Shown here: piece by piece, positions 8,185-60,007 of the stretch | Layout of the letters: each line of letters begins with the position of its first letter | Numbering within the stretch: position 1 is the stretch's first letter | Assembly (NCBI RefSeq): GCF_012849055.1 | Contig: NZ_CP051677.1 | Location: 4,293,001-4,357,000, forward strand | Direction of reading: 5' to 3' | DNA length: 64,000 bases | Source of the DNA: Spirosoma rhododendri | GTDB lineage: Bacteria; Bacteroidota; Bacteroidia; Cytophagales; Spirosomataceae | The notes under the pieces: model-generated | The model's database searches: none | What the model was told of the DNA's origin: nothing | The model's input: the letters and a program-made list of their open reading frames with translations, nothing else | Program-made: the position numbers and the translations under genes

Positions 8185-8264
8185 GCCCCGCGTCTGTATC
8201 CTCACAGACGCCCCGCCGGATGGTAGCTGACGCGCAGGTGTCTGTGAGGAACAGACACAGGGGA
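8185..8264. repeat. intergenic inverted repeat, each arm itself a hairpin
   Basis: Arms 8185-8211 and 8238-8264 are inverted copies with about five mismatches over 27 bases. Each arm also folds on itself (GCGTCTGT/ACAGACGC in the left, GTGTCTGT/ACAGACAC in the right), so the whole can form a three-way structure. The centre read on the minus strand (CTGCGCGTCAGCTACCATCC) resembles the centres of the elements at 13640 and 59901. Confidence 0.75.
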
Positions 8265-8290
8265 ACATCTATAGTGTACGTTGGAAAATA

Positions 8291-8593
8291 TTAGTCTTCG
8301 GCGAGGTCCTCAACCAGGAGCCGCTGCCAGTCGGGGTGTCGCTTGATGTACACACTCACAAACGGACAGGCCGATACGATATTCATGCCCCGACTATCGA
8401 TGTAAGCCAACGTATCCGCCACCAGTTTCGAACCGACACCTTTGCCTTCCAGCGTCGGGTCTACTTCGGTATGTGTGAGTATGAGCGTCTTATCGCCCTG
8501 CTTCTGGTAGTTGATAAAAGCGGGTTTACCATCAACGGTTACTTCAAACCGCCGGGCCGACTCGTTATTTGTCAATGGTGATGTTTCGTGCAT
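8291..8593 (-). CDS. small GNAT-like N-acetyltransferase
   Basis: A 100-residue protein of the compact GNAT subgroup that lacks the N-terminal strands of full GNAT enzymes. The acetyl-CoA loop is seen in EGKGVGSKL, followed by a helix and the motif ACPFVSVYIKRHPDW, which is typical of this subgroup. The substrate is unknown. It stands alone between a repeat element and the acyl-CoA dehydrogenase, about 108 bases upstream of the latter's 3' end. Confidence 0.82.
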   Translation of the reverse strand: MHETSPLTNNESARRFEVTVDGKPAFINYQKQGDKTLILTHTEVDPTLEGKGVGSKLVADTLAYIDSRGMNIVSACPFVSVYIKRHPDWQRLLVEDLAED

Positions 8594-8701
8594 GGGTTAG
8601 TTGCGTCATGTACTAATGAAACCGGGGCCGATCGTTTTGGTTAAGTCGGCTACCCGGCCCCGATTGCTTCGTTACTGCCTGTTCGTCCGGCGACTTTTCG
8701 G

Positions 8702-9916
8702 TTACTTGTAGGCCGGAATACCCGTGATTTCGTTGCCCAGAATCAGCAGGTGTATGTCGTGCGTACCCTCGTAGGTGCTGACCGATTCAAGGTTCATCAG
8801 GTGGCGCATGATCGGATAATCGCCCACGATTCCCATGCCACCCAGAATCTGCCGGGCTTCCCGCGCCACCCGCTGCGCGACCTCCACGTTATTACGCTTG
8901 GCCATCGAAATCTGCGCGGTGGTGGCTTTATCCTCATTTTTGAGCATGCCAAGTCGCCAGCAGAGCAGCTGGGCCTGCGTAATGTCGGTCAGCATTTCGG
9001 CCAGCTTTTTCTGGATGAGCTGAAAACTGGCAATGGGTTTGCGAAACTGAATCCGTTCGAGCGCATACCGGCGGGCCACTTCGTAGCACTCCATAGCCGC
9101 TCCCAACGCGCCCCATGCAATACCGTAACGGGCCTGGTCCAGGCATTTCAGCGCGCTTTTAAGGCCGTACGCTTCGGGCAACAGGTTTTCTTTCGGTACG
9201 CGTACATCCTGAAAATGCAGTTGCCCCGTGCTACTGGCCCGTAGCGACCATTTGTTGGGTATCTCGCTGGCCGTCAGCCCTTCCATACCACGCTCCAGAA
9301 TCAGTGCCCGCACTTTACCCTGCTCGTTGCGCGCCCAGACGATGGCAATGTCGGCGATGGGGGCGTTGGTAATCCAGAGTTTCGACCCGTTGAGCAGGTA
9401 GTAGTCGCTGCGCTCGATGAAATTGGTCTCCAAACTACCGGGGTCAGAGCCGTGGTTGGGTTCCGTCAGCCCGAAGCAGCCCAGCAGCGTACCCTTGGCC
9501 AGACCGGGCAGGTATTTTTGCTTTTGCTCCTCCGACCCAAACGCCCAGATCGGGTACATCACCAGCGAACTCTGCACCGACACGCAGGAGCGCATACCCG
9601 AGTCACCCCGCTCGATCTCCTGCGTCATAAGGCCATACGAGATCTGGTCGAGCCCGCCCCCTCCATACTCGGTTGGGATGGTGGCCCCAAAAACACCGAT
9701 CTGCCCAAACTTGGCAACGAGCTGCCGGGGGAATTCGCACCGCTGTGCGTAGTCTTCCACGATGGGCGTCATTTCGCGTTTAACGAAGTCGCGCACAGCC
9801 GACCGGACCAGCTTATGCTCGGCCGTCAGCAGGTCGTCGAGGCAGTAAAAATCGGGGGCGTCGAACAGGTCGGCTTTGCCGCGCGTCGAAGCGGGAGAGG
9901 AAGTCTGAACTTGCAT
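8702..9916 (-). CDS. acyl-CoA dehydrogenase, glutaryl-CoA dehydrogenase-like
   Basis: FAD enzyme of 404 residues oxidising acyl-CoA thioesters. The N-terminal part (ERGDSGMRSCVSVQSSL) and the substrate-binding loop GCFGLTEPNHGSDP match the glutaryl-CoA dehydrogenase branch, which acts in lysine and tryptophan breakdown. The catalytic base is the Glu near residue 383 in STYEGTHDIH. Other expected blocks (LWITNAPIADIAIVWAR, RYGIAWGALG, QILGGMGI) are intact and the length is normal. No partner electron-transfer flavoprotein gene is nearby. The exact acyl substrate is inference from subfamily resemblance. Confidence 0.9.
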   Translation of the reverse strand: MQVQTSSPASTRGKADLFDAPDFYCLDDLLTAEHKLVRSAVRDFVKREMTPIVEDYAQRCEFPRQLVAKFGQIGVFGATIPTEYGGGGLDQISYGLMTQEIERGDSGMRSCVSVQSSLVMYPIWAFGSEEQKQKYLPGLAKGTLLGCFGLTEPNHGSDPGSLETNFIERSDYYLLNGSKLWITNAPIADIAIVWARNEQGKVRALILERGMEGLTASEIPNKWSLRASSTGQLHFQDVRVPKENLLPEAYGLKSALKCLDQARYGIAWGALGAAMECYEVARRYALERIQFRKPIASFQLIQKKLAEMLTDITQAQLLCWRLGMLKNEDKATTAQISMAKRNNVEVAQRVAREARQILGGMGIVGDYPIMRHLMNLESVSTYEGTHDIHLLILGNEITGIPAYK

Positions 9917-10101
9917 AACAGGTCAACGGGTAAGGGTCACCGGATGTTAGGCGATATACGGTTTTTTCACCAATCTACCTCCACACGCTAAGTCATATCG
10001 ATCAAAATGGGGAAGTTGCATAATATTTGTACACATTTTGTAAACACATCATTGTCGTTAGCTTAGTTTAGGTAAACCACTAGTAACAAGTAAGTACATC
10101 A

Positions 10102-13100
10102 TTGATAACGACAGACGAGAGTAAGCTGGAGTTTTACACGCTGCTGAGCAGAGACGTTTCTTTGTTCGATTTTATGCAAACTGCTGGTTTGCAAGGACTC
10201 ATCTATGGAGACCCGGCTCAGCCCGCTCTTAACTACGTGAGCCCGGCTTTCTGGGCTGCGCTGGGTTATGAACGCCCTCAGCCTTTGTTTCCTGACTGGA
10301 CAACACTGCTCCGTAGCCAGCCACCGGCAGCAGATGCCAGCCAGTCACCACTGCCCTACTGCTTTACCGGAAGCGCAGGTAGTACGGTTTGGCTCTGCGG
10401 CAGGTTACGGCTCCTGACGGCCCCGGATGGGTCAGCGCGCCAGTTGCTTGTCTTTACAAATGTAGCTGACAGCGAGTTGCCCGATGCCGTGCAGGCCGAC
10501 GACGAGGCAGCGGCCTCCTCATCGCTGCTCCAGACGTTTACGGGTAATCCGTTGCTTCAGTCGATTCTGGACAGCCTGCCCATTCACGTCTATATTAAGG
10601 ATACCAAATCCAGAAAGCTGTTTGCTAACCGCGCGGAGTACACCTACATGGGGGCCGACAGCGCGGAATCCATCCTCGGCAAAAGCGACTACGAGTTATT
10701 TCCGGTCGAGTCGGCCCGCCAGTCGATTCTGGAAGACCAACACGTGATGAACACCGGTGAGCCGATGCTGGCTCAGGAAACGATTAATACGCGCCGTGAC
10801 GACGATCCCTGCTGGTTTTTATCCTCTAAAATTCCGCTCTACGATGCGCAGGGAACCGCGTCGGGGCTGCTGGGCATCAGCCTCGATATTACGTCGCGCA
10901 AACAGGCGGAACTTGAGTTACAGCGGACCAAGGAAATGCTGGAGCGGACTAACCAGGTTGCCCGCGTGGGTGGCTGGGAGGTGAATCTGGTCGAGGAAAC
11001 CATTTATTTTTCGCCCATCACCCGCGAAATTCACGAAGTGCCCGACGATTATATTCCTGTGCTCGACAAGGCGATTGCGTTCTACAAGGAAGGCGGTAGC
11101 CGTGAGGCCATTACGCAGGCAGTAGACATCTGCATTCGGGAAGGAACGCCCTACGCCCTCGACCTGCAAATCATTACCTACACGGGTCGGGAAATCTGGG
11201 TGCGGGCCATTGGGCAGGGCGAGTTTGTTGATGGGCAATGCGTAAGGCTGGTAGGAACGTTTCAGGACATCGACGAGCAAAAGCGGACGCAGCAACTGGC
11301 GCACAGTGCCGCCCTGATGCTCCGAAAACTGTCGGACCGCGTACCGGGCTGCCTGTACCAGTTTCAGTCGTTCAAAGACGGACACGTGAACTTCCCGTAT
11401 CTGTCGACCGGGGCAACTGACCTGTTTGATCTGCCCGCACCCGCCGATGAGACTGATTCATGCGCCGAACTGATCCTGGGTCGTATCCACCCCGACGACC
11501 TGCCCATGATGATGGAAACCGTCCGTAATTCGCGAACGTCGCTGGCCAACTGGAACGCCGATTTTCGGGTTATCCTGCCCCACAAAGGCGAACGCTGGCT
11601 TCATGCCGACTCGGTACCAGAATTACTACCCGACAGTACGCTCTGGCACGGGTATTTTCAGGATATTACGACCCGTAAGCAAATCGAGCAGGAGCTGATC
11701 CGGGAGCGGCAGAACGCCGAAGAAGCCAGCCGCTCGAAGTCGGAGTTTCTGGCCAATATGAGCCACGAAATTCGTACGCCCCTGAACGGCGTTATCGGGT
11801 TCACCGACCTGCTGATGCGCACCAAACTCGACGCCCTCCAGCAGGAATATATGTCGACGGTCAATCACTCGGCCAATTCACTGCTCGACGTTATCAGCGA
11901 CATCCTTGACTTTTCGAAGATTGAAGCGGGGAAACTTGACCTTGCCGTTGAAAAATCCGACATCTACGACATTGGCAGTCAGGTGGCCGATATGATTAAG
12001 TACCAGGCCCATCAGAAAGGGCTGGAGATGCTGCTCAACATTGCCCCCGACGTGCCGCGCTACATCTGGGCCGACCCGGTCCGGCTGCGGCAGATTCTGG
12101 TTAACCTGCTGGGCAACGCGGTTAAGTTTACGCAACAGGGTGAGATCGAGCTGCGCATCGAGACGATACCTACTGCGCAGCCCGATCAGATGGCGTTCCG
12201 GTTTCTGGTACACGACAGCGGTATCGGGATTGCTCCGCAGAACCAACAGAAAATTTTTAATGCCTTCTCGCAGGCCGACTCCTCTACCACCCGACGCTTC
12301 GGCGGTACCGGGCTGGGGCTGACCATCTCCAACAAACTGCTTGCCCTGATGGGCAGTCAGTTACAGCTGAAAAGCGAGGAAAACCAGGGCAGCACCTTCT
12401 TCTTCGACGTTTCGTTCCGGGCCGAACCCGGCGAACCGCTTGACTACGAAGTAATCACCGGCATCAGTCGGGTTCTGATCGTCGACGACAACGCGACCAA
12501 TCGACTGATCGTGCAGAACATGCTGACTCTGAAGCAGATCGAATCGATACAGGCCATCAACGGCCTCGACGCCCTCGACAAGCTGACGAATGGCCCCGCT
12601 TTCGATCTGGTGCTGATGGATTACCACATGCCGTACATGGACGGAATCGAAACCATCCGCAAGATTCGGCGTACGCTGAATTTCTCCCCGGAACAACTGC
12701 CCATCCTGCTGCTCGGTAGTTCGGCCGACGATGCGTACGTCGAAGCGGCCTGCAACACGCTGTCGGTGCAGCAGCACCTGATGAAGCCGATCAAGATCCA
12801 GCAGTTTTTTCAGGCGCTGGCCAAGGTTCATCAGCCGCAGTCGAAGCCCGTTGTCCTGTCCGAACCAGTTGCCCAGCCATCCCTCACCGTTACAGGGCAA
12901 ACGGTATTAATCGTTGAGGATAATCCGGTCAATATGCTGCTGGCCAGTGCCATCCTGCGTAACGTGTCGCCCAACATCAATCTACTGACAGCCAAAAACG
13001 GGCTCGAAGGTGTGAACGTGTTTGTGCAGTCGCAGCCGGACCTGATCCTGATGGACATTCAGATGCCTGAAATGAACGGCTACGAAGCCACAGCCGCCAT

Positions 13101-13641
13101 CCGGGCCCTCGACACCGGGCAGACGGTACCCATTATCGCGCTGACGGCGGGCATCATGAAGTCGGAGCGGGAGCGCTGCCTGAACGCGGGGATGAACGAC
13201 TATATCACCAAGCCGGTCGTGAAAAATACGATTGCCCGGATTCTACAACAGTGGTTACCCCAAACTGATTCCGTTGAGGAAGCCCCGGCAGTGCCAGCAC
13301 CCAGCCCGGTGCTGCTACCCATGCGCGCACACTTCGACGAAGAAGAACTCCGAATTCGGGTGGGGGGCGACAAAGAGTTTATGGACGAACTGCTGAGCGA
13401 GGTCAACGGCTATCTGAGCGGCTTCCCGGCCGAGCTACACCACTACCGCACCAGCCGCAACTGGGTTGAGGTCAAGGCGATAGCGCACAAGTTAAAGGGG
13501 AGTGCGCTGAACCTGAGTTTCGGCATACTGGCAACGCTGGCGAGTGAAGTTGAGCAACTGGCGGGGCTGGACGAAACGCGGCTGATTGAACTGGAGTCTC
13601 AGCTCAAAACCGAAATCGCCCTGATTCAGACGCTGATTTGA
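10102..13641 (+). CDS. PAS-containing hybrid sensor histidine kinase with two receivers and HPt
   Basis: An 1179-residue phosphorelay protein. Order: degenerate PAS (about 25-130), PAS (155-270), PAS (275-395), PAS (400-535), HisKA with phosphoacceptor His about residue 555 (NMSHEIRTP), HATPase (DSGIGI, GGTGLGLTI), first receiver with Asp about 840 (VLMDYHMP), second receiver with Asp about 985 (LILMDIQMP), and a C-terminal HPt with His about 1129 (IAHKLKGSA). No membrane segment is seen, so it senses a cytoplasmic signal. The first frame-compatible start is TTG at 10102; the next ATG (10174) would remove the start of the first PAS-like block. An inverted repeat overlaps its stop codon. Confidence 0.93.
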   Translation: MITTDESKLEFYTLLSRDVSLFDFMQTAGLQGLIYGDPAQPALNYVSPAFWAALGYERPQPLFPDWTTLLRSQPPAADASQSPLPYCFTGSAGSTVWLCGRLRLLTAPDGSARQLLVFTNVADSELPDAVQADDEAAASSSLLQTFTGNPLLQSILDSLPIHVYIKDTKSRKLFANRAEYTYMGADSAESILGKSDYELFPVESARQSILEDQHVMNTGEPMLAQETINTRRDDDPCWFLSSKIPLYDAQGTASGLLGISLDITSRKQAELELQRTKEMLERTNQVARVGGWEVNLVEETIYFSPITREIHEVPDDYIPVLDKAIAFYKEGGSREAITQAVDICIREGTPYALDLQIITYTGREIWVRAIGQGEFVDGQCVRLVGTFQDIDEQKRTQQLAHSAALMLRKLSDRVPGCLYQFQSFKDGHVNFPYLSTGATDLFDLPAPADETDSCAELILGRIHPDDLPMMMETVRNSRTSLANWNADFRVILPHKGERWLHADSVPELLPDSTLWHGYFQDITTRKQIEQELIRERQNAEEASRSKSEFLANMSHEIRTPLNGVIGFTDLLMRTKLDALQQEYMSTVNHSANSLLDVISDILDFSKIEAGKLDLAVEKSDIYDIGSQVADMIKYQAHQKGLEMLLNIAPDVPRYIWADPVRLRQILVNLLGNAVKFTQQGEIELRIETIPTAQPDQMAFRFLVHDSGIGIAPQNQQKIFNAFSQADSSTTRRFGGTGLGLTISNKLLALMGSQLQLKSEENQGSTFFFDVSFRAEPGEPLDYEVITGISRVLIVDDNATNRLIVQNMLTLKQIESIQAINGLDALDKLTNGPAFDLVLMDYHMPYMDGIETIRKIRRTLNFSPEQLPILLLGSSADDAYVEAACNTLSVQQHLMKPIKIQQFFQALAKVHQPQSKPVVLSEPVAQPSLTVTGQTVLIVEDNPVNMLLASAILRNVSPNINLLTAKNGLEGVNVFVQSQPDLILMDIQMPEMNGYEATAAIRALDTGQTVPIIALTAGIMKSERERCLNAGMNDYITKPVVKNTIARILQQWLPQTDSVEEAPAVPAPSPVLLPMRAHFDEEELRIRVGGDKEFMDELLSEVNGYLSGFPAELHHYRTSRNWVEVKAIAHKLKGSALNLSFGILATLASEVEQLAGLDETRLIELESQLKTEIALIQTLI

Positions 13642-13770
13642 TTAGTTAATTGGTAGTTGTCCCCGATAGCTTCTAGCTGTCGGAGCCGCGTCAGCGGCTA
13701 ACCAGGCAATCCACTCAGCTTACAGCTCGACAGCTAGAAGCTGTCGGGGACAACCAACCACCAACTAATC
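13640..13770. repeat. long inverted repeat spanning two convergent stop codons (family 1)
   Basis: Left arm 13640-13682 and right arm 13728-13770 are inverted copies of about 43 bases with a few mismatches. The element runs from inside the stop codon of the histidine kinase to inside the stop codon of the convergent gene; both stops read TGATTAGTT. The inner arm TTGTCCCCGACAGCTTCTAG plus GCTGTCG and the centre GCCGCGTCAGCGGCTAACCA have clear counterparts in the element at 59901-60007. Confidence 0.9.
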
Positions 13771-14794
13771 AGTGCACGGCGACGAGCCAGCTCAGGCTTT
13801 CTTCCAGCACTTCGCCCATCGTCTGGCAGTTGGCAAACCGGTTGCTGCGGTAGTGCTGATTCAGCTCGTGGCTAAGCTGCGCGATACGCTCGGGCGACGA
13901 TAGTGTTTCCCGACGCATCAGGTTGAGCAGGTTGGTGAGCCGGGCGTGTTCGATCCGAATGCGACCGGCAATCTGCGCCCGCTCCTCGACCTGATACTGC
14001 CGCACACTCTCCGGGGTCATGTACCGCACACCCAGCTCGATCAGTGCGTTGTTCTGCCGAAAATACTGCGGCATGTACACCGATTTTTTTCCTTCGTAGC
14101 ACTGCTGATCGAAGTCGATAGCCCGAATCCGGTAGTACATTTCCTCAAAATCAGGCGTTACATCGACCACAAAATTCGACGAGTGCATATCGCCAAGTAG
14201 TCGTACGAAGCACCGTTCGTTGAACTTGACAAACTCTTTGCACAACCGAATTGGGTTCAGGTCAGGGTCAGACAGGCGGTTTTCTAGGAACATATCCCCC
14301 GGTATACCCACGATATGCTCTTCGATCAGGGTTGGCCCGCTTGTCAGATAACTAACCTGGTTGGGCGACAGGATGTCTTCCAGTTCAAGCCCGTAAATCC
14401 GCGACGCGTCGGCGTTCTTGACGTAGAAATAATCGAAGTTATCGTTGACCATGTTGACAACCCGCACCCGGAACGGCATCGTATTCCCGTAGGTGCACAG
14501 ATCGACGCGGTCGATGGCCAGGTGGCTGGTCACGTTCAGGTCGCCGTCCGCCTTCAGATACGCGTAGATCGTGCGCAGCGACAGGTGAATGTCCGCCAGC
14601 TCGGAGGGTGGGTACAGCATCGTTTCCCAGAGCGTGTCGCGCCCGTTGCGGTCCAGCACGGCAAACGAGTTATCGGCCCGTTTCAGATCAGTGTACGAAA
14701 TATTGGTCGGCACTTCGCGGTCGTAGTCGCGCAGGTAGGTGCGCAGCCCATCGCTGATCGAAAACGGAATCTTTTTCTTTGAAATAATAGCCAT
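13769..14794 (-). CDS. conserved protein of unknown function, possible kinase-like fold
   Basis: I do not recognise a named family. The product from the start MAIISKKKIPFSI (14794) is 341 residues; the open frame reaches 15055, but the extra N-terminal part overlaps the divergent FAD gene and looks unrelated. In the second half the segments LLGDMHSSNFVVD and IRAIDFDQQCYEGK resemble the catalytic loop (GDxHxxN) and metal-binding Asp (DFD) of aminoglycoside phosphotransferase/HipA-like kinases. The C-terminus is helical and charged. A kinase-like role is inference from these two motifs; a P-loop-like N-lobe is not obvious. Confidence 0.55.
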   Translation of the reverse strand: MAIISKKKIPFSISDGLRTYLRDYDREVPTNISYTDLKRADNSFAVLDRNGRDTLWETMLYPPSELADIHLSLRTIYAYLKADGDLNVTSHLAIDRVDLCTYGNTMPFRVRVVNMVNDNFDYFYVKNADASRIYGLELEDILSPNQVSYLTSGPTLIEEHIVGIPGDMFLENRLSDPDLNPIRLCKEFVKFNERCFVRLLGDMHSSNFVVDVTPDFEEMYYRIRAIDFDQQCYEGKKSVYMPQYFRQNNALIELGVRYMTPESVRQYQVEERAQIAGRIRIEHARLTNLLNLMRRETLSSPERIAQLSHELNQHYRSNRFANCQTMGEVLEESLSWLVAVH

Positions 14795-16558: not shown

Positions 16559-16637
16559 GTTTAAGGTTTGAGGTTTAACGGTTAAGGTTATCAGCTGACC
16601 CGATCAACGTTAAACCTTGGACTTCAGACCTTAAACC
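16559..16637. repeat. intergenic inverted repeat of TTTAAGGTTT type (family 3)
   Basis: Left arm 16559-16580 (begins GTTTAAGGTTTGAGGTTTA) pairs with 16608-16637 in two blocks of nine bases separated by a short asymmetric loop. The left arm matches that of the element at 57967 at 18 of 19 positions. It fills the gap between the FAD dehydrogenase and the Nudix gene. Confidence 0.8.
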
Positions 16638-17314: not shown

Positions 17315-17387
17315 CCCGAGCCTGCGAGGGATCTTCGACAATGACGAATCAAATCGCCTATTACCGAAGATCCCTCGCAGGCTCGGG
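17315..17387. repeat. inverted repeat with perfect 23-base arms
   Basis: CCCGAGCCTGCGAGGGATCT (17315-) and its exact complement at 17365-17387 pair without mismatch over 23 bases around a 27-base centre. An outer TTGTCA/TGACAA pair extends the symmetry. It lies between the convergent Nudix and tolC-like genes. No T-run follows either arm, so it is not a classic intrinsic terminator. Confidence 0.88.
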
Positions 17388-25894: not shown

Positions 25895-25961
25895 GTTTAC
25901 ATTGTTCAGTTTACATACTGATTAACAACAGTTTACATTATATAAACTGAACAATGTAAAC
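25895..25961. repeat. inverted repeat with perfect 19-base arms
   Basis: GTTTACATTGTTCAGTTTA (25895-25913) and its exact complement (25943-25961) flank a 29-base centre that itself repeats the word GTTTACATTA. Further outside, CGTTT before and AAACG after extend the symmetry across the stop codon of the pump gene. It lies between the convergent permease and SGNH-like genes. Confidence 0.88.
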
Positions 25962-29266: not shown

Positions 29267-29319
29267 TACCAAACAGAAGCGGGGAGCCTGATAATCAGGC
29301 TCCCCGCTTCTGTTTGGTA
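29267..29319. terminator. bidirectional terminator, perfect 53-base palindrome
   Basis: Arms of 26 bases (from TACCAAACAGAAGCGGGGAG) are exact complements around a single central A. It sits between the convergent genes at 27401 and 29330 and can serve both directions. There is no long T-run, so the call as terminator rests on position and stem strength. Confidence 0.7.
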
Positions 29320-31177: not shown

Positions 31178-31267
31178 TTGGACAGGATTGACAGGATTTG
31201 AATCTTCTTTTCTGTAGCCGCGAAATCCTGTCAATCCGAACGTCGGCCCGGCTGTAATCCTGTCCAA
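31178..31267. repeat. inverted repeat of ACAGGATT type with an insertion in one arm
   Basis: Left arm GGACAGGATTGACAGGATTT (31180-31199). The right arm reads AAATCCTGTCAATCC (31223-31237), then about 23 extra bases, then TCCTGTCC (31258-31265). The extra piece is flanked by AATCC on both sides. It lies between the GNAT start and the dehydratase stop. A single-arm relic of similar sequence occurs near 55005-55040. Confidence 0.75.
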
Positions 31268-33309: not shown

Positions 33310-33378
33310 TGGGTTTAAGGGGTAAGGTTCAATGTTTAATGTGCTGAACCTTACCCCTTAACCATTGAACTTTAAACA
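33310..33378. repeat. intergenic inverted repeat, nested arms
   Basis: GGTTTAAGGGGTAAGGTTCA (33312-33331) pairs with 33345-33363 with one bulged base. A second, weaker copy of the arm (CATTGAACTTTAAAC) follows at 33363-33378 and could pair as an alternative. It lies between two genes of the same direction, 2 bases after a stop codon. Confidence 0.82.
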
Positions 33379-34990: not shown

Positions 34991-35003
34991 GTTGACAAGT
35001 CAA

Positions 35004-35042
35004 CAAAAAAGGGTCAATTCGTAATGAATTGACCCTTTTTTG
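35004..35042. terminator. bidirectional intrinsic terminator
   Basis: A-run, GGGTCAATTC / GAATTGACCC stem with a four-base loop, then T-run, in the gap between the convergent aldehyde dehydrogenase and SDR genes. Both strands carry a T-run after the stem. Confidence 0.88.
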
Positions 35043-35055
35043 TTTGAGTAAAGCT

Positions 35056-35785: not shown

Positions 35786-35894
35786 GGTTATAAAGTTATA
35801 AAATCGTAGGATTGTAAAGCTGCTGGCGCGTCTTGGCTGACGCCGGATGGCAACTTTACAACCCTACGACTTTACAACTATTCAACTTTAAAAC
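35786..35894. repeat. long inverted repeat with conserved centre (family 2)
   Basis: Left arm 35786-35822 (contains AATCGTAGGATTGTAAAGC) pairs with 35851-35894 (contains CAACTTTACAACCCTACGAC). The centre CTGGCGCGTCTTGGCTGACG (35823-) continuing to 35850 matches, at 26 of 28 positions on the opposite strand, the centre of the element at 54100-54208. It ends one base before the stop codon of folE. Confidence 0.88.
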
Positions 35895-42344: not shown

Positions 42345-42420
42345 GTTCGTGGTTTGTCGTTCGTGGTTCGTGGTTTTTCCGAATCGCATCACTACGAACC
42401 ACGAACAACAAACCACGAAC
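42345..42420. repeat. inverted repeat with 30-base arms of GTTCGTGGTT words
   Basis: Arms 42345-42374 and 42391-42420 pair with only two mismatches over 30 bases around a 16-base centre. Each arm is built from tandem copies of GTTCGTGGTT. It fills the gap between the MFS and GHMP kinase genes on the same strand, starting five bases after the stop. Confidence 0.9.
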
Positions 42421-42430: not shown

Positions 42431-43552
42431 ATGCCCGAAACCTTCACTGCGTCGACGCCGGGGCGAATCTGTCTGTTTGGCGAACATCAGGATTATCTGG
42501 GCCTGCCGGTGATTGCAGCGGCTATCTCGCGCCGGATCGCCATCACCGCGCAGCCTGATGCGCAGCCCGGCTTTCGGCTTGCACTGCCCGACATCGGGAG
42601 TCAGATCGATATTCCATTCGACGGAAACGTTCTGCCATACCCCAACACCCGCGACTATTTCCGGTCGGCGGTGAATGTGCTGCTGCGGGAAGGATTTACG
42701 TTTAGCCGCGGTATTTCGGGAACAGTGCGGGGCAACATCCCGATCAACTCCGGCACGTCGAGTTCGTCGGCCCTGCTCGTTAGCTGGCTCAACCTGCTGA
42801 CGCACCTTGCCGATCAACCGGTTACGCTTTCGCAGGAACGCATAGCCGAACTGGCCTACACGGCAGAAGTGCTGGAGTTTGGCGAGCCGGGCGGCATGAT
42901 GGACCATTACTCGACGGCGGTGGGTAATCTGATTTACCTCGAATCGACCCCGGCGATTGCCCTTCAAACGCTGACGCCCCCGCTTGGCACCTTCGTGCTG
43001 GGCGACTCGCGCGAACCTAAAGACACCATCGGTATTCTGAGCCGGGTGAAGTTTGGGATGCTCGATATCGTCAGGCGGTTAGCGGCTATCGACCCAACAT
43101 TCTCGCTGCACACGACCGAACTAACGCAGGCCCCCGAATACAAAGACATTCTGATCAAAGACGAGTACAACCTGCTGAAGGGCAACCTCGCCAACCGCGA
43201 TATTCTGCGCGACGCGTTGCACCTGCTGCAACAGCCAGCCGATTCGTTTGACCACACCCGGTTTGGTCGGCTGCTCAACGATCATCAGACGAACCTCCGC
43301 GAAGCCCAGCGTATCTCGACGCCCAAAATCGACCGTATGCTCGACGTAGCGTTAAACGCCGGAGCATTGGGTGGCAAAATCAACGGTTCCGGCGGGGGTG
43401 GTTGTATGTTTGTTTACGCACCCAACCAGCCCGAACAGGTCGCCGACGCCATTGAACGCGCAGGTGGCAAAGCGTATGTGATTACGGTTGACGACGGAAC
43501 ATTTTTTTCTAAACACGGAGATACAGAGAGATTCACAGAGCACACGGAGTAA
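42431..43552 (+). CDS. GHMP-family sugar kinase, galactokinase-like
   Basis: A 373-residue kinase with the three GHMP motifs: the N-terminal substrate motif PGRICLFGEHQDYLG, the ATP loop PINSGTSSSSALL, and the C-terminal GGKINGSGGGGCMF. The first motif resembles galactokinase, but the sugar cannot be told from sequence; fucose or heptose kinases share this layout. The last 13 residues or so (KHGDTERFTEHTE) lie within the left arm of an inverted repeat and are not part of the kinase fold. It follows the sugar MFS gene and precedes an amine permease. Confidence 0.87.
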   Translation: MPETFTASTPGRICLFGEHQDYLGLPVIAAAISRRIAITAQPDAQPGFRLALPDIGSQIDIPFDGNVLPYPNTRDYFRSAVNVLLREGFTFSRGISGTVRGNIPINSGTSSSSALLVSWLNLLTHLADQPVTLSQERIAELAYTAEVLEFGEPGGMMDHYSTAVGNLIYLESTPAIALQTLTPPLGTFVLGDSREPKDTIGILSRVKFGMLDIVRRLAAIDPTFSLHTTELTQAPEYKDILIKDEYNLLKGNLANRDILRDALHLLQQPADSFDHTRFGRLLNDHQTNLREAQRISTPKIDRMLDVALNAGALGGKINGSGGGGCMFVYAPNQPEQVADAIERAGGKAYVITVDDGTFFSKHGDTERFTEHTE

Positions 43553-43597
43553 TTTTTCTCTATGTTCTCTGTGATTACCTCCCTACCTCTGTGTTTA
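43510..43597. repeat. inverted repeat that encodes the C-terminus of the GHMP kinase
   Basis: Left arm 43510-43549 and right arm 43558-43597 are imperfect inverted copies of about 40 bases with a short centre. The left arm is in the reading frame of the kinase and supplies its final residues; the stop codon TAA is in the centre. Words such as CAGAG recur in both arms. Confidence 0.82.
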
Positions 43598-43613
43598 AAA
43601 AATCACCCTGCGT

Positions 43614-47510: not shown

Positions 47511-47566
47511 CGGTTTACGGTACAGCCCCGGCCACCGTAAACCCTATATCGAAAACCGGACACTGT

Positions 47567-48756: not shown

Positions 48757-48768
48757 CGACCGCGGCAT

Positions 48769-49566: not shown

Positions 49567-49670
49567 CCAGATTTAAACGCTTTCCCCGTTGACAACCACC
49601 GGGAACCACTGCAAAAGTAGCGGGTGGTCAGGGGGTGGCGTTGAGCCAATCAAACCGATACTTGGTCTGA

Positions 49671-50576: not shown

Positions 50577-50627
50577 TCACTAACCAGGTTAGTCTGCCAG
50601 CCTGCTGACGACGTATTTAACAGAAAA

Positions 50628-51239: not shown

Positions 51240-51298
51240 TCAAGTCAGAGTGATTCAACATCACAAAACATAACTTCCACGGTGCTTCAGTCCGCAAC

Positions 51299-51778: not shown

Positions 51779-51854
51779 GGCTATCGTGTGTTTACGATGC
51801 AATCAACTGCTTTTCAGCACGTAACGCGCTTAATTTATCATTAGAAATAGTCGG

Positions 51855-53057: not shown

Positions 53058-53066
53058 AGACCAGCC

Positions 53067-53102
53067 AAAAAAAGAGCGCCGAAGTCGTGCAGGCTCCGGC
53101 GC
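53067..53102 (-). terminator. intrinsic terminator after the 2OG-Fe oxygenase
   Basis: Read on the minus strand: GCGCCGGAG, a loop, CTTCGGCGC, then a run of seven T. It lies twelve bases beyond the oxygenase stop and just upstream of the chrA start. Confidence 0.75.
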
Positions 53103-53113
53103 AGGCTATATAA

Positions 53114-54073: not shown

Positions 54074-54099
54074 AGACTAATCTAATTTCTACAAATATA

Positions 54100-54208
54100 A
54101 AAAGTTCTAAAGTTATAAAGTCGTAGCGTAGTAAAGTTGCCACCCGGCGTCAGCCCAGACGCGCCAGCAACTCTACTACGCTACGACTTTAGAACTTTAG
54201 AACTTTAC
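54100..54208. repeat. long inverted repeat with conserved centre (family 2, opposite orientation)
   Basis: Left arm 54100-54139 (AAAGTTCTAAAGTTATAAAG...) and right arm 54168-54207 pair with few mismatches over about 40 bases. The 28-base centre is the reverse complement of that of the element at 35786, with two differences. It reaches to one base before the stop codon of the superoxide dismutase gene, just as the other copy does for folE. Confidence 0.9.
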
Positions 54209-54904
54209 CTACGCCCCGTAGTTCTTGGCGATTTTGTCCCAGTCGAACACGTTCCAGGCGGCCGTGACGTATTCGGGGCGTTTGTTCTGGTACTTGAGGT
54301 AGTAGGCGTGTTCCCACACGTCGAGACCCATCACGGGCGTGCCTTTTTTCTCGGCCAGCGCCATCAGCGGGTTGTCCTGATTGGGCGTCGTGACGATTTC
54401 TACGCCGTCGCCCGACTTAATCAGCCACACCCAGCCCGATCCGAAGCGCGACCCGGCGGCTTTTGCCCACTCGGCCTTGAAATTATCAAACGACGTATAC
54501 TTCTTGTTGATCGCGTCGGCCAGTGCGCCCTTCGGTGCCCCGCCCCCTTTCGGACTCATGATCGTCCAGAAAAACGAGTGATTCCAGTGCCCACCGGCGT
54601 TGTTACGCACGGCCGCCGGGGTGCTGCTGCTGATGCTCTTCACCAGCGCGTCGATGTCCATCTTCGCCATGTCGGTACCGGCCACGGCTTTGTTGAGGTT
54701 GTCGACGTAGGCCTTGTGGTGCTTGTCGTGGTGAATCTCCATCGTCATTTTGTCGATGTGGGGTTCGAGCGCGGCAAAATCGTAGGGCAGCGGGGGCAGC
54801 TTGAACGGGCCTTCGGTCTGCGTCGGCGTGATGCCAAACGAGCGGAATGCCATCAGTCCGGCCGAAGCACCGAACGCCAGTTTCAAAAATTCAGAGCGAT
54901 TCAT
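54209..54904 (-). CDS. Fe/Mn superoxide dismutase, exported
   Basis: Converts superoxide to oxygen and hydrogen peroxide. A 231-residue protein with a leader (RSEFLKLAFGASAGLMAF) that suggests a periplasmic location, then the dismutase body. Metal ligands: His in TMEIHHDKHH, His in GGHWNHSFFW, and Asp and His in LDVWEHAYYLKYQ. The GGGAPKG loop is closer to the manganese type, but metal choice cannot be fixed from sequence. Confidence 0.92.
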   Translation of the reverse strand: MNRSEFLKLAFGASAGLMAFRSFGITPTQTEGPFKLPPLPYDFAALEPHIDKMTMEIHHDKHHKAYVDNLNKAVAGTDMAKMDIDALVKSISSSTPAAVRNNAGGHWNHSFFWTIMSPKGGGAPKGALADAINKKYTSFDNFKAEWAKAAGSRFGSGWVWLIKSGDGVEIVTTPNQDNPLMALAEKKGTPVMGLDVWEHAYYLKYQNKRPEYVTAAWNVFDWDKIAKNYGA

Positions 54905-55092
54905 GCGAATGTTGGTTTGTAGGCAACTAACTAACGTTATGTATCAGCAACGGGCAGGGATGCGGGTTACCGTCTACAAAGAAACGCCTTTTTGGTTCGG
55001 AATTGTTTTGACAGGATTGCCCGATGAACAGGATTTTGATTTTCACCCTGGAAACGCAACGGTTTCACAACCGGCATGGGGGCGTACGATTA

Positions 55093-55180
55093 CCCCCCGT
55101 CCCCCTGAAGGGGGTGAGGACTTGCAAACTTTAAACCGCATTTTAGGCCGTGTCCTCACCCCCTTCAGGGGGACGGGGGG
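55093..55180. repeat. inverted repeat with perfect 29-base arms
   Basis: Arms 55093-55121 and 55152-55180 are exact complements around a 30-base centre. Each arm contains its own small palindrome CCCCCTGAAGGGGG, so a four-hairpin structure is possible. Confidence 0.9.
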
Positions 55181-55215
55181 CATACACACGCGTCAGCAAC
55201 GCGCTTCGCCCGGAA

Positions 55216-55261
55216 CCGTGTCGGGCTGGGCCGGGCTGGCGTTCCAGACCCGACACCACGG
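55216..55261. repeat. hairpin element with GGGCTGGCGTT centre
   Basis: TGTCGGGCTGG (55219-55229) pairs with CCAGACCCGACA (55244-55255), with flanking CCG/CGG. A related hairpin (GGTGTCGGGG ... CTCTGACACC with the same GGCTGGCGTT word) is at 60010-60041. Confidence 0.65.
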
Positions 55262-55324
55262 CATTACAACAAAAACGCCGGGCATCAACCCGGCGCAGTG
55301 AATAAAATCCTGTACAAGAAAACC

Positions 55325-55936
<612 letters not shown>

Positions 55937-55939
55937 TTA

Positions 55940-56105
55940 TAAAGAGCGAAAGAGTGAAAGAGTGAAAGAGCGGTTGCCAACAACAGCAATTAAGTGCTCA
56001 TATCACCATTGCTCCGACTGGGAGTCAGCCCGGAGACGAGCGAAAGAGTGCCGGAGTGGGTGGTGCGTCTGTCGCTCTTTCACTCTTTCACTCTTTCGCT
56101 CTTTA
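55940..56105. repeat. inverted repeat with perfect 33-base arms made of GAAAGAGT words
   Basis: Left arm 55940-55972 starts four bases from the recR start codon; right arm 56073-56105 ends with the stop codon of clpS. The arms are exact complements over 33 bases, and each is tandem copies of the seven- or eight-base word GAAAGAGT. The centre is about 100 bases and holds a third partial copy of the word (56041-56049). Confidence 0.92.
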
Positions 56106-56387
56106 ATTTAACACCTCCGCGCTGATGCCGCGTCGGCAGATTTCGTTGCGCATGGGTACCAGTTCGTCCCACGACCCGTTTTTGACGGTGCATTTGCCTT
56201 TGTAATGAATCAGGAGCGTGCATTGCTCAGCTTGCTCAGACGTATGTTCGCACACATCCATCAGCGTGTCGATGACGTGATCGAATGTATTGACCTCGTC
56301 GTTGAAAACGACCAGATTGTGCACGTCGGTTTCGACTACGTCTTCCAGCAGGGCTACTTCGCTTTCTTCAAAAGGTTGCATGGGCAA
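56103..56387 (-). CDS. clpS: ATP-dependent Clp protease adaptor ClpS
   Basis: A 94-residue adaptor that hands N-degron substrates to ClpAP. The acidic pocket and core are clear: LVVFNDEVNTFDHVIDTLM, HTSEQAEQCTLLIHYKGKC, and the C-terminal ICRRGISAEV. Length and layout are normal. A good promoter lies 20 bases upstream of the start. Its stop codon is part of the inverted repeat shared with recR, so recR and clpS may be read as one unit across a strong hairpin. Confidence 0.94.
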   Translation of the reverse strand: MPMQPFEESEVALLEDVVETDVHNLVVFNDEVNTFDHVIDTLMDVCEHTSEQAEQCTLLIHYKGKCTVKNGSWDELVPMRNEICRRGISAEVLN

Positions 56388-56406
56388 TAAAAACGTGTTT
56401 ATTTAG

Positions 56407-56438
56407 CAAATTTACGCCAAATCAGGCAGTTTACGAAA
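56407..56438 (-). promoter_or_regulatory. Bacteroidota-type promoter for clpS
   Basis: Read on the minus strand: TTTC (56438-56435), a 20-base spacer, TAAATTTG (56414-56407). It fits the Bacteroidota consensus with one mismatch in the upstream box. Confidence 0.6.
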
Positions 56439-56495
56439 CGGGTAATAATCTGTTAAACTAACCGTTATTTGCCCCATAAAGTTGCTTTTTTGCCC

Positions 56496-57962
56496 ATGAA
56501 TCCCACCCTCGCACTGCTCATTCTGATCGCTTATTTTGGGCTGCTGGTTGCCGTTTCGTTCTACACCGCCCGTGGGGCCGATACCACCACGTTTTTCACC
56601 GCCAACCGGCAGTCGCCGTGGTGGTTAGTGGCCTTCGGGATGATCGGCACGTCGCTGTCGGGCGTCACGTTTATTTCGGTGCCGGGGGCGGTGGGCAAGA
56701 TCGGCTTTTCCTATTTTCAGGTCGTGCTGGGCTACATCATCGGCTACCTCGTCATCGGCACGGTGCTGATGCCGCTATACTACCGGCTCAACCTGATTTC
56801 GATTTACGGCTACCTCGAAAAGCGCTTCGGCTACTGGTCGTACAAAACGGGCGCAGGCTTCTTTCTGCTGGCCCGTACGGTAGGATCGGCGGTGCGGCTT
56901 TACGTCGCGGCCAACGTGCTCCAACTGGCGATTTTCAACGCGCTGGGCATTCCGTTCGAAGTGTCGGTGCTGATTACGATTGCCCTGATCTGGGTGTACA
57001 CGTTCAAGGGGGGCGTCAAAACGATTATCCTGACCGATTCGCTGCAAACGATATTTCTGGTGTCGGCCGTCGTGCTGACGATCGTGCTAATTTCGCAGGA
57101 ACTCGGTTTTTCATTCGGTGAACTCGTCAGCTCGATCAAAGCCAGCCCGAACTCGAAAATTTTCTTTTGGGACGCCAACGACCCCAAGAATTTCTACAAG
57201 CAGTTTATCTCGGGCATATTCATCGCCATTGTGATGACGGGTCTCGATCAGGATCTGATGCAGAAAAACCTGACCTGCAAAAACATCGGCGAAGCGCAGA
57301 AAAATATGTTCTGGTTCACGATTACGATGGTCATTGTCACGTTCCTGTTCATGTGTCTGGGCGTGCTGCTCTACATCTACGCCGGCCGCGACGGTATCGC
57401 CATCCCCGAACGCACCGACGATCTGTACCCGCTGCTGGCTCTGAATCACCTCGGCCCGCTGGTCGGTATCACATTTTTGCTGGGCATCACGGCGGCAACC
57501 TACGCCAGTGCTGACTCCGCCCTGACGGCCCTGACGACTTCGTTCTGCGTCGATTTTATGAACGTTGAGCAACGGCCCGAAGCCGAGCGGTCGCGCATCA
57601 AGCATATCGTTCACATCGGCTTCTCGCTGCTGTTCTATGTGGTCATCATCCTGTTCCGGCAGTTGAACAGCAAGGAAGTCATTACGGCGGTGTTCGACAT
57701 TGCGGGCTATACCTACGGACCGTTGCTGGGGCTGTACGCCTTTGGCATTTTCAGCCACCGCCCCGTCGTCGACCGCTTCGTGCCGTGGATTTGCCTGGCC
57801 TCGCCCGTGCTGACATACATCATCAATCAGAATTCAGCCGCCTGGTTTGGCGGTTACCAGTTCGGCTTCGAGCGGCTGCTGCTCAACGGCCTGATTACCA
57901 CGCTCGGCCTCTGGGCCGTCTCGCGCCCCGTTAAACACCCGGAGCCGGTGGTAGTTTCTTAG
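56496..57962 (+). CDS. sodium:solute symporter (SSS family)
   Basis: A 488-residue transporter with about thirteen membrane helices. Typical blocks include FFTANRQSPWWLVAFGMIGT with SLSGVTFISVPG near the start, YLEKRFGYWSYKTG, GGVKTIILTDSLQTIFL, and GLDQDLMQKNLTCKN. These are the marks of the sodium/glucose-proline-pantothenate symporters. The substrate is not visible. The start is taken at 56496 because the upstream extension to 56469 adds nine residues before the first helix. It is divergent from clpS. Confidence 0.92.
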   Translation: MNPTLALLILIAYFGLLVAVSFYTARGADTTTFFTANRQSPWWLVAFGMIGTSLSGVTFISVPGAVGKIGFSYFQVVLGYIIGYLVIGTVLMPLYYRLNLISIYGYLEKRFGYWSYKTGAGFFLLARTVGSAVRLYVAANVLQLAIFNALGIPFEVSVLITIALIWVYTFKGGVKTIILTDSLQTIFLVSAVVLTIVLISQELGFSFGELVSSIKASPNSKIFFWDANDPKNFYKQFISGIFIAIVMTGLDQDLMQKNLTCKNIGEAQKNMFWFTITMVIVTFLFMCLGVLLYIYAGRDGIAIPERTDDLYPLLALNHLGPLVGITFLLGITAATYASADSALTALTTSFCVDFMNVEQRPEAERSRIKHIVHIGFSLLFYVVIILFRQLNSKEVITAVFDIAGYTYGPLLGLYAFGIFSHRPVVDRFVPWICLASPVLTYIINQNSAAWFGGYQFGFERLLLNGLITTLGLWAVSRPVKHPEPVVVS

Positions 57963-57966
57963 AGTA

Positions 57967-58046
57967 GTTTAAGGTTTGTGGTTTAAGGTTTAAAGTTCCT
58001 CCGGGGTAAGCAAACAATGTTAAACCTTGAACCACAAACCTTAAAC
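57967..58046. repeat. inverted repeat of TTTAAGGTTT type (family 3)
   Basis: Arms 57967-57992 and 58021-58046 pair with one mismatch over 26 bases around a 28-base centre. Its left arm is nearly identical to that of the element at 16559. It lies between the symporter and treZ on the same strand, four bases after a stop codon. Confidence 0.88.
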
Positions 58047-58062
58047 CCAACGTACCAACGTT

Positions 58063-59909
58063 ATGACTGAAGTACCCATCGCCCGGCGGACACTGGGCGT
58101 AACGTTTGCGCCCGACGCGACCGCTACCGTGCAGGTCTGGGCACCCAATGCAACCACCGTTCAACTCGTGCTGGAAACAACCGGCGAAACACTACCGCTG
58201 ACACCCGGCGACGGGGGTTGCTGGCGCACAACGACCGATCAGCTACGGCCCGGCGACCTGTACCGGTTTTCGCTCGACGGGCAACGCCTACCCGACCCGG
58301 CCTCACTGGCGCAGCCGCAGGGCGTACACGGTCCTTCTCTGGCGTACGACCCGACAGTTTTCAACTGGACCGATGAGAAGTGGCAAAATCCCGCCCTCGA
58401 CAACTACCTGTTTTATGAATTGCACACCGGCACATTTACGCCCGAAGGCACTTTCGCCGGGGTTGCCGCCCGGCTCGATCACTTCGTTGAGTTGGGCATC
58501 AACGCCGTCGAGCTGATGCCGATTGCGCAGTTCCCCGGCGACCGCAACTGGGGTTACGACGGCGTGTGTCCGTTTGCGGCCCAGCACTCGTACGGCGGAG
58601 CGCGGGGGTTGCAGCAACTGGTCGACGCCTGCCATGCGCGGGGGCTAGCCGTGGTACTCGACGTCGTGTACAACCATATGGGGCCGGAGGGCAATTACTT
58701 TTCCAGCTACGGCCCTTACTTTACCAGCCGCCACCGCACGCCCTGGGGCGATGCTATCAACTTCGACGGTTCCGGCAGCGAGGGTGTTCGGCAGTACGTG
58801 CTTGAAAACGTGCTGATGTGGTTCCGCGACTTCCATATCGACGCGCTCCGGCTCGACGCCGTCCACGCCATTCGCGACGACAGCGAATCACACATTCTCC
58901 GCGACATCCGCCTGCACGTCGATCAGCTGGTGGCGCAGACCGGGCGGCAGCATTACCTGATTATCGAATCCGACCAGAACGAAACGCGTTACATCAAATC
59001 CGTTACCGACGGTGGCTACGGCATGGATGCGCAGTGGAACGATGAGTTTCACCACGCCCTGCGCGTCACGGCGGGGGTGAACAGCAGGGCTACTACGCCG
59101 ACTACGACGGTATCAAACACCTCGCGAAAGCCTACCGCGATGCCTACGTGTACGACGGTACGTTTATGCCCCGCCGGGCAAAAATCGTCGGCACACCCAC
59201 TACCGACCTGCCCGGCCGACAGTTTGTTGTGTTCTCGCAGAACCACGATCAGATCGGTAACCGGATGCTGGGCGAACGACCTGGCCAGCTCGTCAGCGAC
59301 GCCATGCAGCGGCTGATGGCCGGGGCTGTGCTGACGAGTTCGTACCTACCGATGCTGTTTATGGGTGAAGAGTGGAGCGAACAGCACCCGTTTCTTTACT
59401 TCGTCAGCCACTCCGACCCCGATCTGATCGAAGCCGTCCGGCAGGGGCGTCAGCGCGAATTTGCCGCGTTTCAGACGGCCGTTCCCGCGCCCGATCCGCA
59501 GTCGGAAGCCACGTTTCAGCAATCGAAACTACAATGGTCACTGCTTGGCGAACCGCACCATCAGGGCATGTTCCGGTACTATCAGGCGCTGATTAAGCTA
59601 CGCAAGACATCGGTGCTGCGGTTTCCGAACCGGAAAAACGTGTACGTCACCTTCAGCGACGATACACAGACGCTGGTGCTGCAACGCTGGCACGAACACC
59701 GCCGGGTAGCTTGTCTAATGAATTTTTCGCGGGTCGCGCAGCCGGTTTGCCTGCCCGACAGCGATCAGCCGTGGACCCGCCGGTTCGATTCGGCCGACCC
59801 CATCTGGGGTGGACCGGCCGCCGGTCCCGATCAGTCGCCGGGCGATGTTGAGGTACTGGTGCAACCCGAATCATTATTGCTCTACACCAACCACGCCGAC
59901 GATCTATGA
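58063..59909 (+). CDS. treZ: malto-oligosyltrehalose trehalohydrolase (frame broken by one base)
   Basis: Releases trehalose from maltooligosyl trehalose, the second step of the TreY-TreZ route. An N-terminal carbohydrate-binding fold (VQVWAPNATTVQLVL) precedes the GH13 barrel. Barrel motifs are all present: DVVYNHMGPEGN, the nucleophile Asp in IDALRLDAVHAI, the acid Glu in YLIIESDQNE, and FSQNHDQIGNR. The frame breaks at the G run 59073-59077: translation from 58063 runs on to a stop at 59316, while the true continuation is in the next frame to 59909. One extra G gives 615 residues of normal length. The stop codon lies inside an inverted repeat, and treY follows. Confidence 0.9.
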
Positions 59910-60007
59910 TGTGTCTCAGACAGCATCCTGCTGTCGAAGCTGCGATAGCGGCTAATCAAGTCATCCGCTACGACAGCAAGGATGCTGTCTGAGACAAATC
60001 ATAGACC
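59901..60007. repeat. long inverted repeat over the treZ stop codon (family 1)
   Basis: Arms 59901-59936 and 59971-60007 pair with two small differences over about 36 bases. The arm word TTGTCTCAGACAGCATCCT, the inner GCTGTCG, and the centre GCTGCGATAGCGGCTAATCA are clear relatives of the element at 13640-13770. It begins eight bases before the end of treZ. Confidence 0.9.

Follow-up and report, generated by a model that had tools for sequence, protein, structure and literature searches.

What makes, and what preserves, the long inverted repeats that lie between so many genes in a 64,000-nucleotide (nt) stretch of the Spirosoma rhododendri chromosome (the window: G000:C1:4293001-4357000, GC 57%, in a genome of 6.05 Mb)? 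A preliminary description, drawn from the letters of the window, listed fifteen such repeats and treated them as a single system with arms that change together. From samples of the whole genome and from the same gaps in related genomes we lean towards another answer: three populations of palindromes stand at the 3′-ends of genes, and the symmetry of one of them, hairpins with arms composed of tandem short words, is made and renewed at the level of DNA, most likely by fold-back copying. For these tandem-word elements the anatomy, the position, the placing of the G-rich arm first, the arm pairs and loops unique to each element, and the exchange of all words of an element for others are matters of observation. 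The three kinds look alike in raw sequence, and each can be told apart by a test of its own; word swaps between sister genomes in one and the same gap make the origin and upkeep of long perfect hairpins testable in a genus of many species. Searches of the open-licence PMC literature brought up no report of elements of this kind from Spirosoma or its relatives.

Inverted repeats in the window and the genome

Every one of the fifteen sites proved to hold an inverted repeat. Gapped scores range from 14 to 35, whereas the top scores of 100 dinucleotide shuffles lie between 8.5 and 13.5, and at no site did any of the 100 shuffles match the observed score; the same is true of two further repeats, at 29267 and 35002, that the preliminary description had overlooked. 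The arms it gave as perfect over 33 nt (55940) and 29 nt (55093) are indeed perfect, as are the 26-nt arms at 29267. No Rfam match and no tRNA gene was found within the window, and a consensus terminator scan of positions 41000 to 60500 (32 matches, 20.7 expected) was of little discriminating use.

The suspected enrichment extends to the genome as a whole. Counting ungapped repeats with a score of at least 17, a limit that the imperfect repeats at 8185, 16559, 31178 and 43510 do not reach, we obtained 79 in 464 kb (the window and 20 stretches spread along the chromosome) and none in each of five block shuffles. A larger sample, 1.264 Mb of the same genome, contains 211 repeats, two of them called genic by the home-made gene caller used throughout. 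In this sample, among gaps of at least 40 nt, a repeat occurs in 74 of 136 between convergent genes, 110 of 500 between tandem genes and 11 of 161 between divergent genes: the repeats are commonest between convergent genes and scarce between divergent ones.

The idea of one system did not survive closer sorting and was dropped: the set is mixed, and each explanation put forward in the preliminary description suits a part of it. By inner palindrome, period and loop, a script divided the 211 repeats into 75 tandem-word, 41 nested, 52 short-loop and 43 other elements; the limits of these classes are ad hoc (the cut-off for the nested class was 7 in the first sorting and 6 in all later ones), arms are ungapped in the counts, and the class statistics given below refer to the script classes rather than to assignment by eye. 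By eye, ten of the fifteen listed repeats are of the word type (16559, 25895, 31178, 33310, 35786, 42345, 43510, 54100, 55940 and 57967); four are nested, going by inner palindromes of score 6–8 in both arms (8185, 13640, 55093 and 59901); the repeat at 17315 is no longer counted as nested because its inner palindromes are weak (4.5–5). The script called five of the ten tandem-word and two (25895 and 33310) 'other', and missed three (16559, 31178 and 43510) at the score limit. The ten have inner palindromes of score 3–6, save that the right arm of 25895 gives 9, an artefact since the stretch concerned overlaps the other arm.

Anatomy and position of the tandem-word elements

Arms in S. rhododendri have median lengths of 31 nt where words are of 7 nt (4.43 units, n = 54) and 33 nt where they are of 8 nt (4.12 units, n = 46); in relatives the medians are 4.14 units of 7 nt (n = 40), 3.50 of 8 nt (n = 13) and 3.61 of 9 nt (n = 22). 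These counts, and the arm identities that follow, cover elements with loops of at most 60 nt. That the arms are built of tandem short words holds good: the median difference between neighbouring words is 25.7% of positions, and that between the two arms 4.8% (66 elements). So does the statement that an arm resembles its partner more closely than it does the arms of other elements, with a median identity of 0.952 to the own arm and 0.812 to the best other element; the own arm is the better match in 61 of 66 tandem-word and 53 of 53 short-loop elements, figures that carry a selection bias, the elements having been chosen for matching arms. Where an arm matches one elsewhere at 0.9 or more (ten elements), the loop is shared in none. 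One short motif, GCGTCAGC, is common to the loops of different word families (13 of 75, 0.51 expected; 5 of 84 among nested and other elements).

The arm that comes first is rich in G. In the 5′-arm G outnumbers C in 182 of 191 tandem-word elements (C outnumbers G in five, four are equal) from seven genomes that include two pairs of close kin; the same is true of 70 of the 75 elements of the strict set from S. rhododendri, of 14 of 16 from further loci of the genus, of 5 of 6 from other Bacteroidota and of both of two from other phyla. As the reverse complement of an element is almost the element itself, both strands show this. Short-loop elements follow no such rule (G>C in 16 of 52, G<C in 25).

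In convergent gaps (n = 18) the element fills a median 0.94 of the space, leaving 4 and 2.5 nt to the stop codons; in tandem gaps (n = 43) the median distance from the stop to the start of the element is 4 nt, 33 elements lying within 8 nt where 19.9 are expected. An arm runs into the stop codon of a neighbouring gene in 18 of 61 tandem-word elements, 0 of 21 nested, 5 of 29 short-loop and 3 of 27 others, and ten of the 61 tandem-word elements extend at least 6 nt into the end of the coding sequence. The description of most repeats as lacking a T-run is also correct: where genes are in tandem, the 10 nt that follow the 3′-arm of a tandem-word element contain 2.7 T, as against 3.1 before the 5′-arm. 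By this measure they are not classical terminators, and by their inner palindromes they are not REPINs. Nor is selection for pairing in RNA evident, since stems of this class show 145 G-U, 137 A-C and 215 other mismatches on the sense strand. It was also considered that the words might serve to supply stop codons; this is not general, as by inspection GTTCGTG and GGTTTTCGG words hold no stops.

Not every array of words is now palindromic: among 143 intergenic arrays of period 7–9, a strong inverted partner accompanies 51 (0 in the control), and with a looser cut 91 (4 in the control). Loci sampled elsewhere gave 44 repeats, 16 of them tandem-word, in 17 loci of the genus (294 kb); 17 repeats, six of them tandem-word, in 16 loci of other Bacteroidota (259 kb); and 17 repeats, two of them tandem-word, in 61 loci of other phyla (889 kb). 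Palindromes of seven-nt words in other vocabularies (for example CGTAATGCGTGATGCGTAATG and GGAATGCGGAATGC) were seen outside the genus in L093 (Anaerolineae), L035 (Saprospiraceae), L037 (Chitinophagales), L028 and L029. Spread of a given word across the phylum was rejected: AAAGAGYGAAAGAGYGAAAG occurs in only three of 395 genomes (S. rhododendri, G011 of the same genus, and G349), and GTTCGTRGTTCGTRGTTCGT, a poor probe absent even from S. rhododendri itself, in one. A control pattern made by reversal, TGCTTGRTGCTTGRTGCTTG, likewise recurs in some other genomes (13+3 in G211, 6+2 in G164), which suggests that other lineages hold further heptamer vocabularies.

Change in orthologous gaps

The gap behind recR was compared across the genus. 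In the window it holds a tandem-word palindrome (55940..56105; AAAGAGYG words of 8 nt, perfect 33-nt arms) between recR and a gene at 56103-56381 that we take to be clpS, the stop codon of which it takes in. RecR of S. rhododendri is 95% identical to that of two genomes of the genus and 89% identical to that of Spirosoma terrae. In 29 of 34 rows of the genus this gap contains an ungapped repeat of score at least 9, and in 11 rows of score at least 17; the words, in 27 rows, are AAAGAGYG, ATGAATTATG, AATGTATAATG, GATTGAATG or GAAGAGTG. In two genomes, G001 and G031, a hairpin without tandem words (ATGAGTACAGCCTGATGA) stands in place of the word hairpin. Mapped on the gene tree (with word families labelled by hand, Larkinella unlabelled, and S. 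terrae, of the same recR as G045, left out), the word family changes 14 times, where the minimum is 6 and the shuffled mean 17.9 (0 of 200 shuffles as low). Lying between minimum and shuffled values, these changes indicate that a word family is inherited for some time and then switched; G041 and G037, which form a clade (support 100/100), carry different families.

Two sister pairs were compared more closely, G042/G035 (90.4% nt identity over 156 kb) and G007/G010 (93.1%), of which only the former is rich in tandem-word elements. At G042:17513, ahead of a gene with a protein starting MATKRDYY (presumably dnaJ), the element consists of GAATGATA words where that of G035 consists of GAAAGAGC words; the loop differs too, and the flanks show 4 differences in 117 positions. 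A second whole swap is found at 84934 (14 of 120 flank positions differ). The other five tandem-word elements of the pair comprise three without change and two with mostly one-sided changes. The preliminary description held that symmetry is kept while sequence drifts. That is true of the short-loop stems; of the seven tandem-word elements of this pair, as just given, three are unchanged, two altered mostly on one side and two replaced.

Short-loop elements

Short-loop elements, with loops of 0–9 nt and A/T tracts, lie in convergent gaps in 30 of 52 cases. Those in tandem gaps have 3.8 T in the 10 nt after the 3′-arm, to which the final 6 nt of the arm add 3.0. Two in the window are a palindrome with a 1-nt loop and perfect 26-nt arms (29267..29319) and a stem with A/T tracts that resembles a bidirectional terminator (35002..35044), both in convergent gaps. 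Nine stems could be aligned between G042 and G035 (a tenth could not): 182 base pairs are the same, 14 have changed on one side and 20 on both with Watson-Crick pairing retained. Twelve stems of G007/G010 gave 195, 18 and 7, respectively. Over all classes, 26 alignable and non-replaced elements of G042/G035 hold 476 unchanged pairs, 44 single changes, 23 double Watson-Crick changes and two double mismatches; noncoding flanks differ at 87 of 648 positions, and by our own arithmetic independent change at that rate would give ∼6 doubles. On the sense strand, stems in tandem gaps have 45 G-U against 25 A-C mismatches (p 0.022, uncorrected for four classes), and the control, stems in convergent gaps, 17 against 18.

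These elements would thus be bidirectional terminators, selected for pairing in RNA and changing by compensated base-pair swaps. In A/T tracts, convergent gaps and compensated pairs they resemble the bidirectional intrinsic terminators with compensatory evolution of Bacillus cereus, as far as the available part of that report describes them (PMC5381666); in contrast to that account, doubles (20) here exceed singles (14) in a direct comparison of one sister pair.

One stem stands apart. At G042:174205 there are six double changes and no single one, and the loop, TTAAT, is the reverse complement of the ATTAA of the sister. Such a combination of multi-base compensated change and loop inversion is like the hairpin mutation by template switching treated in the part of PMC8794818 available to us, where it is held to be the strongest possible support for that process. 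Exact inversion was found in one of 46 loops, and the loop in question is short and nearly self-complementary; two more flagged by a loose rule were unconvincing, and loop inversion was dropped as a general mark. Correction of one arm from the other by template switching, put forward in the preliminary description, is thus plausible, not proven.

Nested palindromes and a RAYT-type gene

The search for a REP-associated (RAYT-type) transposase was rewarded in part. The genome has one match to Y1_Tnp, a gene for a protein of 210 amino acids (aa) on the minus strand at L006:11494-12126, with the motifs SNHVHVVF and YVLHNP. REPINs lie on either side of it (∼L006:11392-11476 and 12143-12231; TGTCTCAGACAGCATCTTGCTGTCTG.. 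and TTTGTCTCAAACAGCATCCTGCTGTTTG..), and two elements of the window are of the same make: 13639..13771 (GTCCCCGATAGCTTCTAGCTGTCG), with arms that take in the stop codons of both convergent neighbours, and 59903..60005 (TGTCTCAGACAGCATCCTGCTGTC). An inverted pair of inner palindromes (scores 6–8) marks these two and also 8192..8256, with GTCTGT..ACAGAC inside each arm (inner score 8 in both) and GCTGACGC in the loop, and 55093..55180, of the CCCCCTGAAGGGGG family, with perfect arms of 29 nt. It does not mark 17315..17387 (CGAGCCTGCGAGG..ATCTTCG; inner score 4.5–5), a member of a repeated family in a convergent gap with kin at L007:2993, L013:10893 and L006:12762. For the families at 8192, 17315 and 55093 no RAYT gene was found, the Y1 match being the only one genome-wide. 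Where starts were compared by way of a GTAG/CGTC tag, the RAYT-flanking family begins with GTCTC and another (L002:7439) with GTAGCC. At L016:999-1189 a GTTTAAG-worded palindrome has a REPIN-like palindrome in its loop, an element inside an element.

The nested class would accordingly be REPIN-like, one of its families probably belonging to the resident gene. With the REPIN/RAYT systems, as described in the available parts of PMC3733652 and PMC6006769, it shares the inverted pair of small palindromes and a lone Y1 gene (SNHVH, YVLHNP) with the same family at either side; tandem-word elements differ in having arms without such inner palindromes. With FWE and YVLHNP, the protein does not fit the WQ and YIH[QN]NP of Bacteroidetes subclass 2.6, as that subclass is given in the part of PMC6006769 at hand.

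The tandem-word majority is not simply explained by this gene. Genomes of the genus have 0–14 Y1 matches, with at least one in 29 of 36, and among the seven without a match five (G003, G015, G032, G041 and G045) have a word hairpin in the recR–clpS gap, weak in each (scores 10–13); only G003 of these five has a tandem-word element of score at least 17 in the DNA sampled.

Proposed origin and renewal of the tandem-word elements

A typical element has two arms of ∼31 nt, each of about four words of 7–8 nt, the G-rich arm on the 5′-side, around a short loop of its own; it stands mostly a few nt after a stop codon, often filling the gap. In the account to which we lean, its symmetry would be produced and renewed in DNA, most likely during replication, when one arm would be copied from the other by fold-back (template switching), with words taken from a genome-wide vocabulary, and selection would chiefly purge the elements from promoters and coding sequence; hairpins that are transcribed may protect or insulate the 3′-ends of mRNAs. 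Whole swaps, one-sided changes and the lack of a wobble excess argue for renewal in DNA followed by decay rather than for stepwise covariation maintained through RNA. Fold-back copying would account for matched arms with unique loops; since words are shared genome-wide, exchange between loci would be needed as well.

Several results weigh against this account. The sole inverted loop sits in a short-loop stem, leaving template switching without an instance in the tandem-word class, and in six elements of this class from two sister pairs 107 pairs are the same, ten have changed singly, and there is one double Watson-Crick change and one double mismatch. The closeness to stops in convergent gaps is about what fullness forces (15, 14.1 expected). 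In 185 comparisons of tandem gaps with such an element, 118 orthologous gaps of at least 40 nt have no repeat of score at least 15 (65 have repeats in both genomes and two gaps are short). Hairpins co-occur in orthologous tandem gaps with a modest excess (70 pairs, 53.2 expected; 3 with 0.1 expected in divergent and 7 with 4.5 expected in convergent gaps), and these figures, like all statistics pooled across genomes, rest on dependent pairs. The strict count of tandem-word elements in a recR locus and the tally of Y1 matches in its genome rise together over 17 loci (rho 0.58, p 0.015, genome size uncontrolled; rho 0.38, p 0.13 at a laxer limit). An early wobble count, in fewer genomes, gave 35 G-U against 21 A-C for tandem-word stems and 62 against 33 for all classes; selection on RNA, favoured for the class at that time, was dropped for it when a count over a larger set of genomes, with arms chosen less strictly, came to 145 against 137. 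Finally, around the Xanthomonas repeats considered below, stability is raised, not lowered, according to the part of PMC4692102 at hand.

The correlation with Y1 number is the reason for giving more weight to explanations by transposase, and it keeps such a link plausible in spite of the weak hairpins of the five Y1-less genomes. In one form, which we regard as possible but doubtful, the tandem-word element is itself mobile, of a MITE- or REPIN-like kind; a transposase would copy it and place it after stop codons, and the words would mark subfamilies. Its discrete size of ∼80 nt would agree with this, and insertion as a unit would account for the lengths of gaps: one orthologous gap measures 6 nt in S. 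rhododendri and, with an element, 120 nt in G014 and 92 nt in G016 (the flanks have diverged), while 30 of 68 convergent gaps without a repeat are no longer than 33 nt, and 18 of these measure 0–15 nt, as expected of a gap minus its element. The loop motif GCGTCAGC, shared across word families, recurs in the loop of a REPIN beside the RAYT gene. Loops that differ wherever arms match speak against mobility, as do the hairpins of genomes without Y1, and pure copy-and-paste was rejected, no full copy of arms and loop having been found. The wider proposal that everything is REPIN-RAYT, for which the REPIN-flanked gene and the Y1 correlation could be cited, seems to us improbable: the tandem-word elements of the window have inner palindromes of 3–6 (the artefact at 25895 aside), the four nested ones of 6–8, and word hairpins occur where Y1 does not.

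Alternatively, all the repeats may be hairpins of RNA 3′-ends, terminators or barriers to exonuclease, with arms that co-vary under selection for a paired stem. A role of this kind, raised in the preliminary description, suits the location: convergent and tandem gaps are favoured, divergent gaps avoided, and stop codons are near. Compensated changes between sisters and the G-U excess of short-loop stems, of 'other' stems (64 against 40, p 0.024) and of all classes together (282 against 226, p 0.015) are in keeping with it, and in Xanthomonas assembled transcripts begin or end more often at quadruplex-capable repeats (PMC4692102, part available). Neither tandem-word nor nested stems (28 against 24) share that excess, however; the former lack a T-tract, exchange their words whole, and have a G-rich 5′-arm that this explanation does not predict. 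As a common cause for all classes we therefore rate it as unlikely, though worth keeping in view. The template-switch model, as set out in the available part of PMC8794818, predicts G-C over C-G, which is matched here; its preference for U-A above A-U finds no counterpart in tandem-word elements, where A is slightly more frequent than T.

Relation to heptamer arrays of Xanthomonas and Nostoc

The nearest published kind are the heptamer repeats GGGAATC and GGGGA(C/T)T of Xanthomonas and Nostoc. According to the part of PMC4692102 available, on which the whole of this comparison rests, their units are degenerate and 7 nt long, and an array mostly has four of them; the arrays are intergenic, depleted where genes diverge and generally not associated with mobile elements; they lie on the coding strand, mostly within 50 bp of a stop codon and at times overlapping it, and inverted neighbours number 70 among 186 arrays (Xcc) and 75 among 183 (Xac). 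Tandem-word elements likewise have a degenerate unit of ∼7 nt in about four copies, a G-rich strand closely behind the stop and a depletion between divergent genes. They differ in that words are of 7, 8 or 9 nt with several vocabularies per genome, in that whole arms are nearly perfectly paired, and in belonging to another phylum. Nor can their arms form quadruplexes: none of 181, again from elements with loops of at most 60 nt, has four runs of at least three G, and any GGG is found in 28 of 175. That the tandem-word elements are themselves quadruplex-forming heptamer repeats, a reading to which the equal unit size, unit number, place and inverted pairing would lend themselves, is therefore very improbable; and since the same anatomy occurs with words unable to form quadruplexes, the cause common to both may be something other than the quadruplex. 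What the two have in common is unit number, proximity to the stop, a G-rich leading arm and inverted pairing. We offer, tentatively, a broader suggestion: stop-anchored hairpins of four words might form a kind of their own in several phyla, in other vocabularies, neither transposon, terminator nor quadruplex, with an arm pair made at each locus and at times overwritten whole by DNA copying that is bordered by the end of the upstream gene and sets the G-rich arm first.

Further elements of the window

The remaining word-type palindromes of the window differ in words and in state of preservation. Two consist of GTTTAAG words of 7 nt: 16559..16636, which follows immediately on the stop at 16558 and has decayed arms (77%), and 57967..58046, with a stop 4 nt away. 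GTTCGTG words, also of 7 nt, make up 42345..42420 (stop 5 nt away), and words of 8 nt are found at 35794..35879 (AGTTGTAA, loop TGGCGCGTCTTGGCTGACGCCGGATG) and at 54101..54206 (AAAGTTNT), the latter with 40-nt arms and placed 2 nt after the stop of superoxide dismutase; no plasmid record resembling 53900-54300 was found. The palindrome GTTTACATTGTTCAGTTTACAT (25895..25961) lies in a convergent gap, 2 nt from a stop; 31178..31266 is imperfect, with GACAGGATT words; and 33315..33361 bears GTTTAAGGGGTAAGGTTCAATG. In 43510..43597, of ACACGGAG/ACAGAG words, the left arm (43510-43552) forms the last codons of a GHMP-kinase gene that ends at 43552; word arms end genes in the same way at L005:8407, L015:8370 and L020:11210.

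The gene treZ (malto-oligosyltrehalose trehalohydrolase) is split over two frames, 58063-59316 and 59148-59909, which match positions 4-316 and 343-539 of a profile of 545: either a broken gene or a sequencing error.

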